Source of the DNA: Candidatus Poribacteria bacterium
GTDB taxonomy: Bacteria; Poribacteria; WGA-4E; WGA-3G
DNA length: 64,000 nucleotides
Direction: 5' to 3'
Assembly (NCBI GenBank): GCA_026706025.1
Contig: JAPOZO010000063.1
Location: 62,001 to 126,000 of the forward strand
The translations under genes were made by a program, and so were the position numbers. How positions within the stretch are numbered: the first letter of the stretch is position 1; each line of letters opens with the position of its first letter. Shown piece after piece: positions 52,951 through 57,037 of the stretch. The notes beneath the pieces are model-generated. The model did no database searches. It worked only from the letters and a program-made list of their open reading frames with translations, and was not told where the DNA came from.

Positions 52951-52979
52951 AGGATACCTTATTTTAAAAGTTTTGTCAA
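52951..52979 (-). promoter_or_regulatory. Sigma-70-like promoter for gyrB
   Basis: On the minus strand a perfect -35 TTGACA (52979-52974) and a -10 TATCCT (52956-52951) are 17 bases apart. The -35 overlaps the TGA of dciA. It gives gyrB a start of its own downstream of recF-dciA. Confidence 0.7.
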
Positions 52980-53479
52980 GGCTTTTCTTTACGCTGTGTA
53001 ATGAATAATTGCCGCAAGGAAATTTTTAAATCAGTATCCGTCACATCAGCTATTGCCTGCTCAATTTGTTCTAATTCTTTCGAGGTTGGTGTCCGGAGAT
53101 TGCTTGAGCGAGACGTTGATGTTGGGGGCTTTGGCATTTCTGAATCAGTGGAGGCATGTTTCGCGTGATGGGATGTTGCTTGATGTGCTTGGCGTAACTC
53201 TATCCGGAGATCTGTAAGAACGGGCTGCCCTAATTCCGCATTCAGGTCTGCTATAATCCTCTGTTTATGGAATGATAGTTCTGTTCTGTACGGAGGATAT
53301 TCCGTGTAGACTTTCAAAACGCCATCCGACAGCGATACCGGCACTGTTTTCGTCCCAAGTGGTGTTCCGAGACGTTTGCGCCAAAGGACAAAGACTTTCT
53401 GCTCAAGCATCTTGGGCTCAAAGTCGCGGGAGCGGGCGAGTTCAGTGAGGAGATCGCGTAGGTTTTGGGTCTTGCGCAT
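52976..53479 (-). CDS. dciA: DciA (DUF721) helicase-loading factor
   Basis: 167 residues. DciA is the ancestral bacterial loader that helps place DnaB helicase at the origin; it is found where DnaC/DnaI is lacking. The N-terminal DUF721/KH-like domain is recognisable: LRDLLTELAR, VFVLWRKRLGTPLGTKTVPVSLSDGVLKVYT, with hydrophobic strands to TDLRIEL. A disordered Ser/Thr/Pro linker and a C-terminal helix with EQIEQAIADVTDTDLKISLRQLF follow, the region that contacts helicase in related proteins. It sits in its classic place between recF and gyrB. Confidence 0.85.
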   Translation of the reverse strand: MRKTQNLRDLLTELARSRDFEPKMLEQKVFVLWRKRLGTPLGTKTVPVSLSDGVLKVYTEYPPYRTELSFHKQRIIADLNAELGQPVLTDLRIELRQAHQATSHHAKHASTDSEMPKPPTSTSRSSNLRTPTSKELEQIEQAIADVTDTDLKISLRQLFITQRKEKP

Positions 53480-53526: not shown

Positions 53527-54819
53527 TTAGGAGGACTCATTAGTTTCGGCGGCATAACTTATCTGCGCGTTCTCTACCGTCAAAACATTCGGTTGATCAA
53601 GATGATTTACAAGAGGTTCAGCGTGTGTAGCTGTAATGAAGGTTTGGGCACTTAAATTTTCGAGAACCTCTAATAAGTACCCTATCCGCTTGTAATCTAA
53701 CTCTGAGGTAACATCATCCAATAAAACTATCGGGTCCCTGCCTGTCAGGTGTCGAATCAATTTTAGTTCTGCTAATTTGAGTGCTAATGCAATAGTCCGC
53801 TGCTGCCCTTGTGATCCATAAGATCGTGCTACCTCTCGAAATGCTCCTGTTTCAGGATCCAAATCTTGCGTATCATTTTCACTATGGTAGTAAGTGATAC
53901 GCTCTTCGGGGCCACTCTCCAATTCAATGAGGAAATCATCTCGGTGTGGGCCGACTAAGGTTGTACCTCTCTGTAAATCTGCCTCGCGTGAAGCATTTAA
54001 TGATGTGCCAAAATGTTTGGCTACCTTCTCTTCATCTTCACGGGTAGTCTTAGGTTCCGCTAACAAGTTGGGGGCAGCAGTTTCTGAAGTATTGCATGCG
54101 ATACTGTCGATTGACGTATCGTTCGACACCGATGCCGAACGATACGTCAGCGCGATATCTTCTGAATCGCCGGTAAGTTTTTGGTGGTTTTGGATCGCGT
54201 GCGCTTTCAGTTGATGAAAGATTTCCAATCGCTTTATAGTGATTGCGGTACCATGCATGAGCAGCAATTTATCCCAAGCATCCAATTGCGTTACGCTTGC
54301 GAACGTCGCACGAATCTGCTTTAGCAACTCATTTCGTTGTTTGAGAACGAGATTGTACTTTTGCAAATTTTTCAGGTATTCGTTGTCAATCTGTGAGATT
54401 AGGAGATCTAAGAATCGTCGTCTTTCTGAAGGTCCTCCCTTCACTAATGTCAGCGACTCTGGAGAAAAAAATACAACGTTAAATTGACCAATCCATTCGG
54501 AACGTCTTGGCTGGAGAATACCGTTTTTCTTCAGTCTAAACTGTCCGCGTGCCTGCTTTATCGCCTCAAGAGATGTTACTTCATCACTTCCATTCCTCAG
54601 TGTCCCTTTTAGATAGAATCCTGACTCATGATGCCGAATCAATTCGGCATCATGAGTCGCACGATGAGATTCCGCGGTGCAAAGAAAATAGATTGCTTCA
54701 AGCAAACTGGTTTTTCCCTGGGCATTCCCACCGACGATTAAATTAACAGGTTTAGGGAAGTCTACTTCGCAATTGATATAATTACGGAAATTGCGTAAGA
54801 CGATATGATTTAATAACAT
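53527..54819 (-). CDS. recF: DNA replication/repair protein RecF
   Basis: 430 residues; an SMC-like ATPase that promotes RecA loading at gaps. Walker A GGNAQGKTSLLEA near residue 33, signature SYGSQGQQRTIALALKLAE and Walker B PIVLLDDVTSELD are all present. It is longer than the usual 360-370 because of an insertion around residues 220-280 (SVSNDTSIDSIACNTSETAAPN and on). Part of this insert is a 38-base palindrome in the DNA, and a second near-perfect 36-base palindrome encodes THDAELIRHHES. ATG 54819 opens straight from the origin region without a clear Shine-Dalgarno; its promoter is not identified. Confidence 0.93.
   Translation of the reverse strand: MLLNHIVLRNFRNYINCEVDFPKPVNLIVGGNAQGKTSLLEAIYFLCTAESHRATHDAELIRHHESGFYLKGTLRNGSDEVTSLEAIKQARGQFRLKKNGILQPRRSEWIGQFNVVFFSPESLTLVKGGPSERRRFLDLLISQIDNEYLKNLQKYNLVLKQRNELLKQIRATFASVTQLDAWDKLLLMHGTAITIKRLEIFHQLKAHAIQNHQKLTGDSEDIALTYRSASVSNDTSIDSIACNTSETAAPNLLAEPKTTREDEEKVAKHFGTSLNASREADLQRGTTLVGPHRDDFLIELESGPEERITYYHSENDTQDLDPETGAFREVARSYGSQGQQRTIALALKLAELKLIRHLTGRDPIVLLDDVTSELDYKRIGYLLEVLENLSAQTFITATHAEPLVNHLDQPNVLTVENAQISYAAETNESS
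54112..54149. repeat. 38-base palindrome in recF
   Basis: TGACGTATCGTTCG and CGAACGATACGTCA are perfect 14-base arms around ACACCGATGC. It encodes TYRSASVSNDTS in a part of RecF that looks inserted relative to the family. Confidence 0.85.
54623..54658. repeat. 36-base near-perfect palindrome in recF
   Basis: GACTCATGATGCCGAATC faces AATTCGGCATCATGAGTC; 17 of 18 positions pair. It lies in the conserved DAELIR region of RecF and is read as THDAELIRHHES. Confidence 0.85.
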
Positions 54820-55200
54820 CTTTTTTGAATGTAAATATTTTTATTGAGTCAGGTGCAAAATTGACCAACTTTTAGCACTTATCCACAATCTCTAATATTA
54901 ATACTAATTTCTATATAAATTTATATAGTACTTAGTAGTAGTAGTAGGGGCTGTTGATAAGTGGATAACTCACCTGAAGGCTTATTATCATTGACAAGTA
55001 CCCTGTTGATAACTTGTTGATAAATCAGCGAGTTATCAACAAGTTATCAACAAAACCATACAACAGTCAAGTTATGCACAAGTTATGCACAAGTTATGCA
55101 CAATGTTTTAACATAGTTATCAACAAGTTATCAACAGGTTTAGGATGCGGTATATCGTTTAAAAATGCCTCAAAAACGGAAGATAAAACGCAGAATTTGG
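54820..55200. other. Replication origin (oriC) with phased DnaA boxes, TAG trios and AT-rich unwinding region
   Basis: Between recF and dnaA. DnaA boxes of the TTATNNACA type: TTATCCACA 54879-54887; TGTTGATAA 54952-54960, 55004-55012, 55015-55023; AGTGGATAA 54960-54968 (one mismatch); TTATCAACA 55033-55041, 55044-55052, 55117-55125, 55128-55136; TTATGCACA 55072-55080, 55083-55091, 55094-55102. Within each run the spacing is exactly 11 bases, one helical turn. Left of the boxes come GGGG (54947-54950), five TAG triplets (54933-54947) and an AT-rich stretch (54888-54930). This order matches the DnaA-box / GC-rich / DnaA-trio unwinding element known from Bacillus and others. No gene lies here. 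Confidence 0.9.
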
Positions 55201-56607
55201 CTATCGAAATTGATCAAGCAAAAACACAATTGTTTGCCGTTCATCATCACTTTTTTCGATAGTATCTTCTATCTGTTTACAAGCGTGAATGACAGTAGTA
55301 TGATTTCCCTTATTAAACGCTTGGGCAATGTTTGAATATGACATTTGTGTCAACTCTCTGCACATATACATAGCGATTTGACGCGGCTGCACTAACTCCT
55401 TTGTCCGTTTCTGAGAGACGAGGTCTGTCACGTCAATGCCAAAGTAGTCAGCGACGACCATTTGTATCCCTTTTGATGTGGCTGTTTTACGGTCTCGCAT
55501 TGGTGACGGGGTGCCCACATCGCTCAGCACCTGTCGTGCAAAATCTAAGCTCAAATTTTCCTTGAGTATTGTAGCTTGTGTAACCAATCGTACAAGCGTG
55601 CCTTCGAGTTCTCGGATATTCGTCTCGACAACTTCGGCGATGTAACTGAGTACATCATCAGGTAGGTTGTCAAACCCTTGGTCTTGACATTTCTGCCGGA
55701 GGATAGCGATACGCATCTCGTACTGTGGCATACCAATCTCAGCTACCATGCCGGATTGAAATCGGGATCGAAGGCGAACTTCAAGATTTTCAAGGTTATT
55801 CGGTGTCCGGTCGCTGGTCATGACTATCTGGTTTGAGTTCATGTGGAGGTCATTAAAGGTGTTAAAGAATTCCTCCTGTGTGCCTTCCTTGCGTTGTAAA
55901 AATTGTATGTCATCAATCAAAAGCATATCTGCTGTGCGATACTTTGTGCGGAATCCCTGTGCCGATCCGCGGTTGACGATAGACTCAACGTATTCATTCA
56001 TGAAAGTTTCTGATGTAACGTACAGAACTTTCTTATCGGGTTGGTTTGCTGAGAGTCTATTGCCAATTGCGTGCAAGAGGTGAGTTTTACCCAATCCCAC
56101 CCCGCCGTAAATAAAGAGCGGATTGTAGTCGCGCCCTGGATTTTCTGAAACGGCTAAAGCGGTTGCATGACAGATCCGGTTAGGTGTATCAACGACGAAC
56201 GTATCAAACCGATATCTTGGGTTCAGTCCTGTCTGATTTTGCGGGACGGCGGTAGAAGGGGCGTTAACAAATATTTCACTTTGATTGGCAGATTGATCAG
56301 AAGTATCTTCTACTTCTATTAGATTAGAATCCTCACTGCCGTGAGCCGGAGATTCGTCTACCACAGATTCGTCTATAGTCAGAGTGAGTACACATTGTGC
56401 ACCAATGAGTGTTGCCAACACTCGTTGGATGTCAGTTCGGAAACGCTCTTCAATTCGCGCGCGTGTATACGCTGAAGGTACAGCTATCTTCAATGCGTCT
56501 GCTGTGAGCGAAAGCGGAACTGCTTGATGAAGATAAACATCCTGTTGTGCTGTGTCGTTGAGATTCTCCAGTATTTCTGACCAGATTTCGTTGGGGGTGT
56601 GCCGCAT
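55201..56607 (-). CDS. dnaA: Chromosomal replication initiator DnaA
   Basis: Start ATG 56607 (MRHTPNEIWSEILENL) is taken over an in-frame GTG 27 bases upstream because it begins with the conserved domain I; 468 residues. The AAA+ core begins NPRYRFDTFVVDTPNRICHATALAV, with Walker A GGVGLGKTHLLHAIGN, Walker B LLIDDIQFLQ and sensor MTSDRTPNNL. Domain IV carries the box-binding signature HTTVIHACKQIE after the SQKRTKELVQPRQIAMYMCRELT helix. A Ser/Glu-rich linker (domain II) spans about residues 85-125. The gene reads toward the origin, which sits in the place dnaN usually occupies. Confidence 0.96.
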   Translation of the reverse strand: MRHTPNEIWSEILENLNDTAQQDVYLHQAVPLSLTADALKIAVPSAYTRARIEERFRTDIQRVLATLIGAQCVLTLTIDESVVDESPAHGSEDSNLIEVEDTSDQSANQSEIFVNAPSTAVPQNQTGLNPRYRFDTFVVDTPNRICHATALAVSENPGRDYNPLFIYGGVGLGKTHLLHAIGNRLSANQPDKKVLYVTSETFMNEYVESIVNRGSAQGFRTKYRTADMLLIDDIQFLQRKEGTQEEFFNTFNDLHMNSNQIVMTSDRTPNNLENLEVRLRSRFQSGMVAEIGMPQYEMRIAILRQKCQDQGFDNLPDDVLSYIAEVVETNIRELEGTLVRLVTQATILKENLSLDFARQVLSDVGTPSPMRDRKTATSKGIQMVVADYFGIDVTDLVSQKRTKELVQPRQIAMYMCRELTQMSYSNIAQAFNKGNHTTVIHACKQIEDTIEKSDDERQTIVFLLDQFR

Positions 56608-57037
56608 GAGCGTGTATCCTAGCCTAAATGGCACATGAGCTTTCAGCTTTAATATCAGTTTTAAAGCTTAGCCATTATAATTCCTTAATACTTAATAAAT
56701 GTAAAATAAAAATGAGACTATGCCGGTTAATTAACCGAGAGGTATAATAATAAATAAAATCGTATCATTTTCCTACAGAAATGTCAACACTTTTATCAGA
56801 GAATATTAAATATATTCCAAATCCCTCGGAAGAATATTTTGAACTAAAACCGAAATTTTATCAAGTTATTTTTTCTATGACCAGCAAAAATTACAAGGTC
56901 AAAAAATTTGACAAATGTCGAAAAATAGCGTATCATTTTAAAACGCAACGTAATACCATTCTGACGAATAGAAATACTTATGTGTGTAATGACCTAACAC
57001 ATAAAAGGTAACGCCTACATAGAAAAAGGAGACATTC
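56608..57037. other. Divergent promoter region between dnaA and rpmH
   Basis: 430 AT-rich bases with no convincing gene. It contains a perfect 14-base palindrome CGGTTAATTAACCG at 56724-56737, a possible operator. On the minus strand a TATAAT at 56679-56674 may be the -10 for dnaA, but its best -35 (TTTACA, 56705-56700) is 20 bases away. The rpmH promoter is listed separately. Confidence 0.5.
56908..56936 (+). promoter_or_regulatory. Sigma-70-like promoter for rpmH
   Basis: TTGACA at 56908-56913 and TATCAT at 56931-56936 with a 17-base spacer, about 100 bases before the rpmH start. It is the best -35/-10 pair seen in this spacer. Confidence 0.7.

Follow-up and report, generated by a model that had tools for sequence, protein, structure and literature searches.

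A conserved, mirrored DnaA-trio-like element at the predicted chromosomal origin of a sponge-associated Candidatus Poribacteria bacterium

Introduction

In the published descriptions of the basal unwinding (BUS) element of Bacillus subtilis, tandem DnaA boxes stand by a GC-rich spacer, together with trios carrying a middle adenine on one strand and an AT-rich core (PMC6669920, PMC8287927, PMC10721633). DnaA is reported to assemble from the boxes onto the trios of one strand and then to hold that strand (PMC10721633); of the two BUS boxes, only the upstream one was required in vitro (PMC8287927). For the other strand, marking via DnaD has been proposed in B. subtilis, through a DnaD recognition element whose sequence is complementary to the trios and whose reader is DnaD (PMC10201434). 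The Poribacteria origin described here resembles the BUS in all the parts listed above and adds to them a second, inverted box and array across the core. It would answer the same problem as the DnaD recognition element, namely the marking of the second strand for the helicase, by means of a separate array beyond the core and without DnaD.

Two further systems bear a likeness to this arrangement. The oriC of Escherichia coli has two oppositely oriented DnaA arrays, and two DnaA subcomplexes are reported to load the two helicases (PMC13220808, PMC8235120); as described there, both arrays belong to the box region and so to a single side of the unwinding element, whereas in the origin described here both sides carry boxes and trios. 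In the origins of Helicobacter pylori and Thermotoga maritima, degenerate trios (AAT, CAG and TAA) occur among TAG units, as they do in the second Poribacteria array; the available sections of that report describe one array and make no mention of a mirrored one (PMC10316083).

The published BUS survey retains a single best candidate per origin (PMC8287927), so that a second element would have been discarded and could not be reported. Our searches of the open PubMed Central literature, with subscription papers and preprints outside its scope, turned up neither a description of a Poribacteria origin nor one of a BUS in paired or inverted form.

Results and Discussion

The window, i.e., the whole stretch of DNA analysed, comprises 64,000 nt of a sponge-associated Candidatus Poribacteria bacterium. 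An earlier note, made from the sequence of this stretch, had placed an array of DnaA boxes between dnaA and recF, and the position of the genes bears this out:

54820..55200, no strand: predicted oriC, dnaA-recF intergenic region, with eleven exact DnaA boxes and a layout kept in relatives
55201..56634, minus strand: dnaA, from Pfam domains (PF00308, PF08299) and alignment
53527..54819, minus strand: recF (SMC_N/AAA), named from position and family
52976..53479, minus strand: dciA, of the helicase-loader family (PF05258) by family match, directly after recF

Past recF, the gene order in the window is dciA, then gyrB and gyrA, and no dnaN is found between dnaA and recF. Upon alignment of the window's DnaA with that of B. 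subtilis, a hydrophobic Val occupies the hand-counted position of the ISM residue I190, and the Arg corresponding to R264 is kept. In the family of the window dnaN is absent from the dnaA-recF interval, while in other Poribacteria, among them G050, G043 and G038 (loci L169, L184 and L190, judged by eye), it seems to follow the origin; this gene thus seems to have moved. In some other families of the phylum (G050-G060, e.g., L191, G060:C1:1336560-1337576), a second, shorter DnaA-like protein is found beside DnaA, with an open frame of about 390-440 aa and 36-41% identity.

The DnaA of the window and the genes around it match metagenome-assembled genomes of Candidatus Poribacteria. For the comparison with relatives, the search took in 38 genomes from the genus of the window, of which 34 yielded DnaA, and 84 from the phylum, of which 73 did. 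Counting the window as well as L002, a copy of it that departs from it by the stop codon only, the dnaA-recF regions gave 35 distinct sequences. The set of 35 origins referred to below consists of 34 distinct dnaA-recF regions (the window being counted once, as L002) plus G010, and covers genus g1 and close relatives. A pattern describing the first trio array caught 60 of 71 origins; among the 11 misses, the array is present by eye in L019, L027, L029, L030, G043 and G077, the others being too short or diverged. The comparison of origins that the earlier note had recommended reveals that relatives share the entire layout of the dnaA-recF region. In dnaA orientation, it consists of reverse-box groups, a forward pair, a conserved spacer of ~33 nt, the tandem TTATCCAC-TTATCCACA, GCCC, (CTA)5 and the AT core.

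Eleven exact TTATNNACA boxes are clustered in 54820-55200, within 258 bp beside dnaA, and six occur in the remaining ~63.6 kb of the window. The spacing of neighbouring exact boxes is 73, 52, 11, 18, 11, 28, 11, 11, 23 and 11 nt; five neighbour pairs are exactly 11 nt apart, in agreement with the previous description of about eleven boxes with 11-base phasing. The phased groups, localized by repeat and box search, are the following:

55004..55023, minus strand: box pair, TTATCAACA twice at 11-nt spacing
55033..55052, plus strand: box pair, TTATCAACA twice at 11-nt spacing
55072..55102, plus strand: box triplet, TTATGCACA three times at 11-nt spacing
55117..55136, plus strand: box pair, TTATCAACA twice at 11-nt spacing

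The cluster occupies the intergenic region adjoining dnaA, as expected of a bacterial oriC. A bipartite origin, with a second box cluster upstream of dnaA, was considered and discarded: no exact box occurs from dnaA to the end of the window. As for the DNA between the groups, the spacer separating the tandem boxes from the next box pair (54969-55003) is conserved across genus g1 and takes in several relatives the form CTTGTCAATGGTGACAAGGGTTTAAGCGAG, an imperfect palindrome; it is possibly a candidate site for a DNA-bending or regulatory protein. In genus g3, phased runs of an apparently altered box, TTATTATCA, replace TTATCCACA at the origins L155, L160 and L153 (G070, G068 and G074), which suggests a co-evolved DnaA specificity.

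The primary unwinding element is made up of four parts:

54933..54947, plus strand: primary DnaA-trio array (TAG)5, trios on the plus strand; from the sequence, conserved in relatives
54948..54951, plus strand: GGGC spacer from the primary trios to the boxes, corresponding to the GC cluster of the BUS; from the sequence
54952..54960, minus strand: primary BUS DnaA box TTATCAACA; from the box search
54960..54968, minus strand: second BUS box TTATCCACT, with one mismatch (a twelfth box); it shares one base with the box at 54952-54960, the starts being 8 nt apart

With the box TTATCAACA, a spacer of 4 nt and TAG repeated five times, this element falls within the published definition of a BUS (box with at most 2 mismatches, spacer 0-16, at least 3 NAN trios), and TAGTAGTAGTAG had 0 occurrences in 100 shuffles. 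The tandem of boxes is kept in relatives, and its 8-nt offset recurs between boxes 6 and 7 of B. subtilis. The (TAG)5 lies beside the boxes, where the earlier note had it. Its regularity, which had been called unusual, is real and is normal for this group, the complement (CTA)5 being exact in 23/35 Poribacteria origins; the reported GGGG consists of GGG plus the last G of the fifth TAG, and the actual spacer to the box is GGGC. Furthermore, the B. subtilis top strand, given as 5'-CTACTATTACTTCTACTA-3' in PMC10201434, is nearly the same sequence as CTACTACTACTACTA in the window. Judged from sequence, the primary element is very like the B. subtilis BUS and reads as an ordinary, well-formed oriC of an already known type.

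Next to the primary trios is the AT-rich DNA:

54907..54932, no strand: AT core between both arrays, part of the window's least stable DNA
54911..54928, no strand: perfect palindrome CTATATAAATTTATATAG of 18 bp inside the AT core, from the repeat search

The least stable 30-, 50- and 70-bp segments of the 64 kb start at 54896, 54892 and 54878, respectively, all at the AT tract by the trios. The AT-rich DNA unwinding element characteristic of a bacterial oriC is accordingly present, and the tract is laid out as in a basal unwinding element, as had been proposed. Based on the gene context, the box cluster, the trios with their GC spacer, the least stable DNA of the window and the layout kept in relatives, the prediction that 54820-55200 is the chromosomal oriC of this bacterium, with an element of the basal unwinding type, is well supported.

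The GC skew, suggested earlier as a check on the position of the origin, was analyzed on 20-kb samples from four complete relatives (40 from G035, 40 from G033, 20 from G036 and 20 from G037), with a mixed outcome. The cumulative minimum is by dnaA in G035 (93 kb) and within 0.6 Mb of it in G037 (0.40 Mb) and G036 (0.57 Mb), while G033 is contrary (2.2 Mb). The contrast between quarter-genome arms across dnaA is positive in 4/4 genomes, with p values of 0.03 in G035, 0.02 in G033, 0.40 in G036 and 0.05 in G037; neither gene-strand bias nor third-position skew gave a clearer picture than GC skew. In the group to which the window belongs, GC skew is a weak signal.

The AT tract runs on into an inverted box-plus-array, which is absent from the earlier note. 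Here the arms 54876-54919 and 54920-54963 form an inverted repeat, 80% complementary and with a gap of 0. The parts of the inverted element are:

54879..54887, plus strand: facing DnaA box TTATCCACA, from the box search
54888..54891, minus strand: 4-nt spacer AGAT, from the sequence
54892..54906, minus strand: second, inverted DnaA-trio-like array TAG TAT TAA TAT TAG, from the repeat search

The two trio arrays are thus on opposite strands and point toward each other across the palindromic AT core. With TTATCCACA, a spacer of 4 and five NAN trios, the inverted element also conforms to the published BUS rule (box, spacer 0-16, at least 3 NAN trios), a lenient rule which alone is weak, since 297 of 2000 shuffled versions of this segment of the window conform to it as well. 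We lean, with moderate confidence, toward the view that the facing elements would direct DnaA filaments onto both strands, each filament marking one strand for helicase loading, likely with DciA and not DnaD.

All 35 origins have the second array, 41-48 nt away from the first spacer. In 25/35 the facing box is exact, and in 31/35 it has at most one mismatch, with a spacer of 3-4 nt; it is lost in four (L010, L013, L027 and L029). A strict facing-element rule (TAG, three NAN, TAG, a spacer of 3-4 nt and a box with one mismatch or none) is obeyed by 25/35 origins and by 0/14,000 dinucleotide shuffles. When the second array alone was subjected to a per-origin shuffle test, it did only modestly better than the shuffles, with p between 0.000 and 0.11 in most origins and 0.78 in L007; in genus g1 this array is degenerate and is usually accompanied by one box, not by a tandem. 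Among 17 hand-picked representatives, pairwise identity averages 0.93 in the first array, falls to 0.67 in the AT core and rises again to 0.79 in the second array and 0.87 in the facing box; beyond this box, the next two 12-nt stretches give 0.46 and 0.32. Conservation therefore ends at the facing box, the flank being unconserved.

This distribution of conserved DNA bears on the possibility that the facing box and array lie outside the origin and serve DnaA in the control of the recF-dciA-gyrB operon. They are indeed on the recF side, with the recF start 59 nt past the box (54819 vs 54879). However, conservation does not extend from the box toward recF, the array faces the origin core at a fairly constant distance from the spacer of the first array, and the dnaA-recF distance varies widely among relatives, from 365 to 560 nt. 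We regard such a control site as the least probable of the explanations considered.

An ordinary one-sided BUS has to be weighed more carefully. According to this explanation, the far side would be an AT-rich unwinding element with easily melting TA steps, the resemblance to an array would be incidental and the box would be merely another DnaA site. Indeed, the second array is degenerate and TA-rich, its single-origin shuffle p-values are modest, it is missing from some Poribacteria, and a single array is described as enough in B. subtilis (PMC8287927). The base composition of the trios, on the other hand, points elsewhere. The array was anchored on TAGTA/TAGTT, which biases toward detection of the first trio, and the test of the middle A was consequently restricted to the inner trios of the 18 distinct second arrays (n=54). 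In these, the middle position is A in 50 and the first position is T in 39, whereas the third base drifts (G 14, A 15, T 16, C 9). Of the 17 inner trios without an intact TA step, 13 retain the middle A and only 2 the first T, as fits trios and not TA steps. A conserved middle adenine is the published DnaA-trio rule (PMC8287927), and we judge from these counts that the rule conserved in the second array is that of the DnaA-trios and not a TA-step rule; the inverted element follows it both in its middle A and in the conservation of array and box. Moreover, array and box are conserved far above the DNA beyond, the box keeps its 3-4 nt from the array, and independent mirrored arrays are found in other families and phyla (see below). 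A one-sided BUS is unlikely in our opinion, even if it is the rival that deserves most attention. Of the original interpretation, the oriC of BUS type stands; it is incomplete in describing a one-sided element, the sequence of the window and its relatives pointing to a two-sided one. That the mirrored second element is a conserved feature, and would represent a new variant of BUS-type origin, is well supported.

The second array could also be read by a protein other than DnaA, e.g., DciA-DnaB, as a strand-specific loading site with a role like that of the B. subtilis DnaD recognition element. In favor of this, the array persists where the facing box is lost (in the 4/35 origins named above and also in G038 and G043), dciA adjoins recF, and DnaD of B. 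subtilis is described as using TnnT motifs opposite the trios (PMC10201434). DnaD itself is ruled out as the reader, since a protein of the DnaD/DnaB_2 family was found in 0/37 genus genomes by a search whose control detects B. subtilis and L. lactis. This absence, the correctly oriented DnaA box next to the array in 31/35 origins and the middle-A rule, which belongs to DnaA, make a reader other than DnaA improbable.

Finally, the symmetry could reflect a cruciform or hairpin, in which the arms would pair within one strand and the palindromic AT core would be extruded, exposing single strands. The arms of the window, including both boxes, fold better than shuffles (z -3.93), z is below -2 in 20/35 origins, and the core contains the perfect 18-bp palindrome. 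Nevertheless, a z of -2 is not reached in 15/35 origins, and the inner trios are TAG, as needed to pair with CTA, in only 9/54. Furthermore, there is no co-variation, the arrays of one genome being complementary at 11.46/15 and those swapped between genomes at 11.50/15. With this result of the compensating-change test, a hairpin or cruciform was rejected as the cause of the symmetry, and we assign it very little probability.

Outside genus g1, mirrored TAG arrays are found at the origins of G043, G038, G041 and G049, which represent four other Poribacteria families; G038 and G043 have the best mirrored arrays, yet the facing box is absent. A weaker second array is seen in some origins of genus g3, with a one-mismatch box in G071 and G075 and as TAATAATATAATTAG in G074, G080 and G083. 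Among the Poribacteria origins compared, a clear second array was not found in G046, G048, G050, G051 and most of family f3. At L178 (G040), the trio run CTACTACTACGACGA has the mirrored partner TCGTAGTCGTCG, with unusual CGA units in both arms, which perhaps indicate a changed trio specificity or an inverted copy.

In other phyla, a second array was found in 0 of the ~20 origins with a recognisable first array, among 51 loci. A strict mirrored pattern, CTACTACTAN{8,38}TAGTANTAG, was also searched genome-wide against a reversed control, the phylum labels of the other-phylum genomes resting on the named locus used as search centre. By our own count, the pattern is no commoner genome-wide than the control, being present in 6/84 Poribacteria genomes (control in 7) and in 10/398 Bacillota genomes (control in about 32). 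What stands out is the location of the matches, which lie at an origin-like locus in 5/6 matching genomes in Poribacteria, 3/10 in Bacillota, 2/2 in Acidobacteriota and 3/3 in Actinomycetota, locations having been determined for the hits of the pattern alone. At dnaA-dnaN, the pattern is found in the Bacillota G326, G420 and G406, with a facing box in each (3/10 matching, 398 genomes), in the Acidobacteriota G559 and G549 (2/2 matching, 247 genomes) and in the Actinomycetota G973 and G783 (2/3 matching, 246 genomes). In the actinomycetote G969 (L212, about 1440-1600), a fully symmetric box-trios-core-trios-box element is comprised between TTATCCACA and TGTGGATAA; neither dnaA nor dnaN occurs in the 2.9 kb seen of this locus, and the element may represent an origin that lies apart from dnaA or belongs to a different replicon. 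Pfam confirmed dnaN at seven and dnaA at three of the other-phylum mirrored loci. The strict pattern is present in 0/16 genomes of the phylum of a Zixibacteria locus and in 0/10 mixed genomes, while a looser search in two Bacillota orders matched 2/5 and 3/13 genomes, the extra three (L207-L209) looking weak. By a rough chance estimate (AT 70%, 31 positions, all genomes assumed to have a first array), ~1.2 mirrored origins are expected in the 907 non-Poribacteria genomes, and 8 were observed, in ~6 lineages; with these figures, the recurrence in other phyla is suggestive only. We propose, as a tentative extension about which we are rather doubtful, that a two-fold symmetric origin core with one helicase per DnaA filament may run through much of Poribacteria and single lineages of Bacillota, Acidobacteriota and Actinomycetota.

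The mechanism we prefer, with DnaA filaments on both strands, can be outlined as follows. DnaA would occupy the phased boxes. Starting at the tandem boxes (54952-54968), it would load onto the (TAG)5 of one strand and open the AT core as in the known BUS. From the inverted box and array beyond the core, a second DnaA filament would form on the opposite strand. Its assembly may come after the first filament has opened the core, an order of events that would explain both the degeneracy of the second array and the occasional loss of its box. Two DnaA filaments running antiparallel, one on each strand, would hold the open bubble, and each would direct one replicative helicase (presumably through the second array for the second helicase), probably aided by DciA and not by DnaD. 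The outcome would be two forks proceeding in opposite directions without DnaD.

These findings suggest that a class of origins has escaped surveys that retain a single best element for each genome. The mirror-image element could explain how two forks start in opposite directions, and a naturally symmetric origin makes this question directly testable, through the loss of one fork or of both upon removal of one array at a time. If our reading is true, bidirectional helicase loading would be solved in these organisms by the symmetry of the DNA, a task for which other bacteria rely on additional proteins, DnaD among them.
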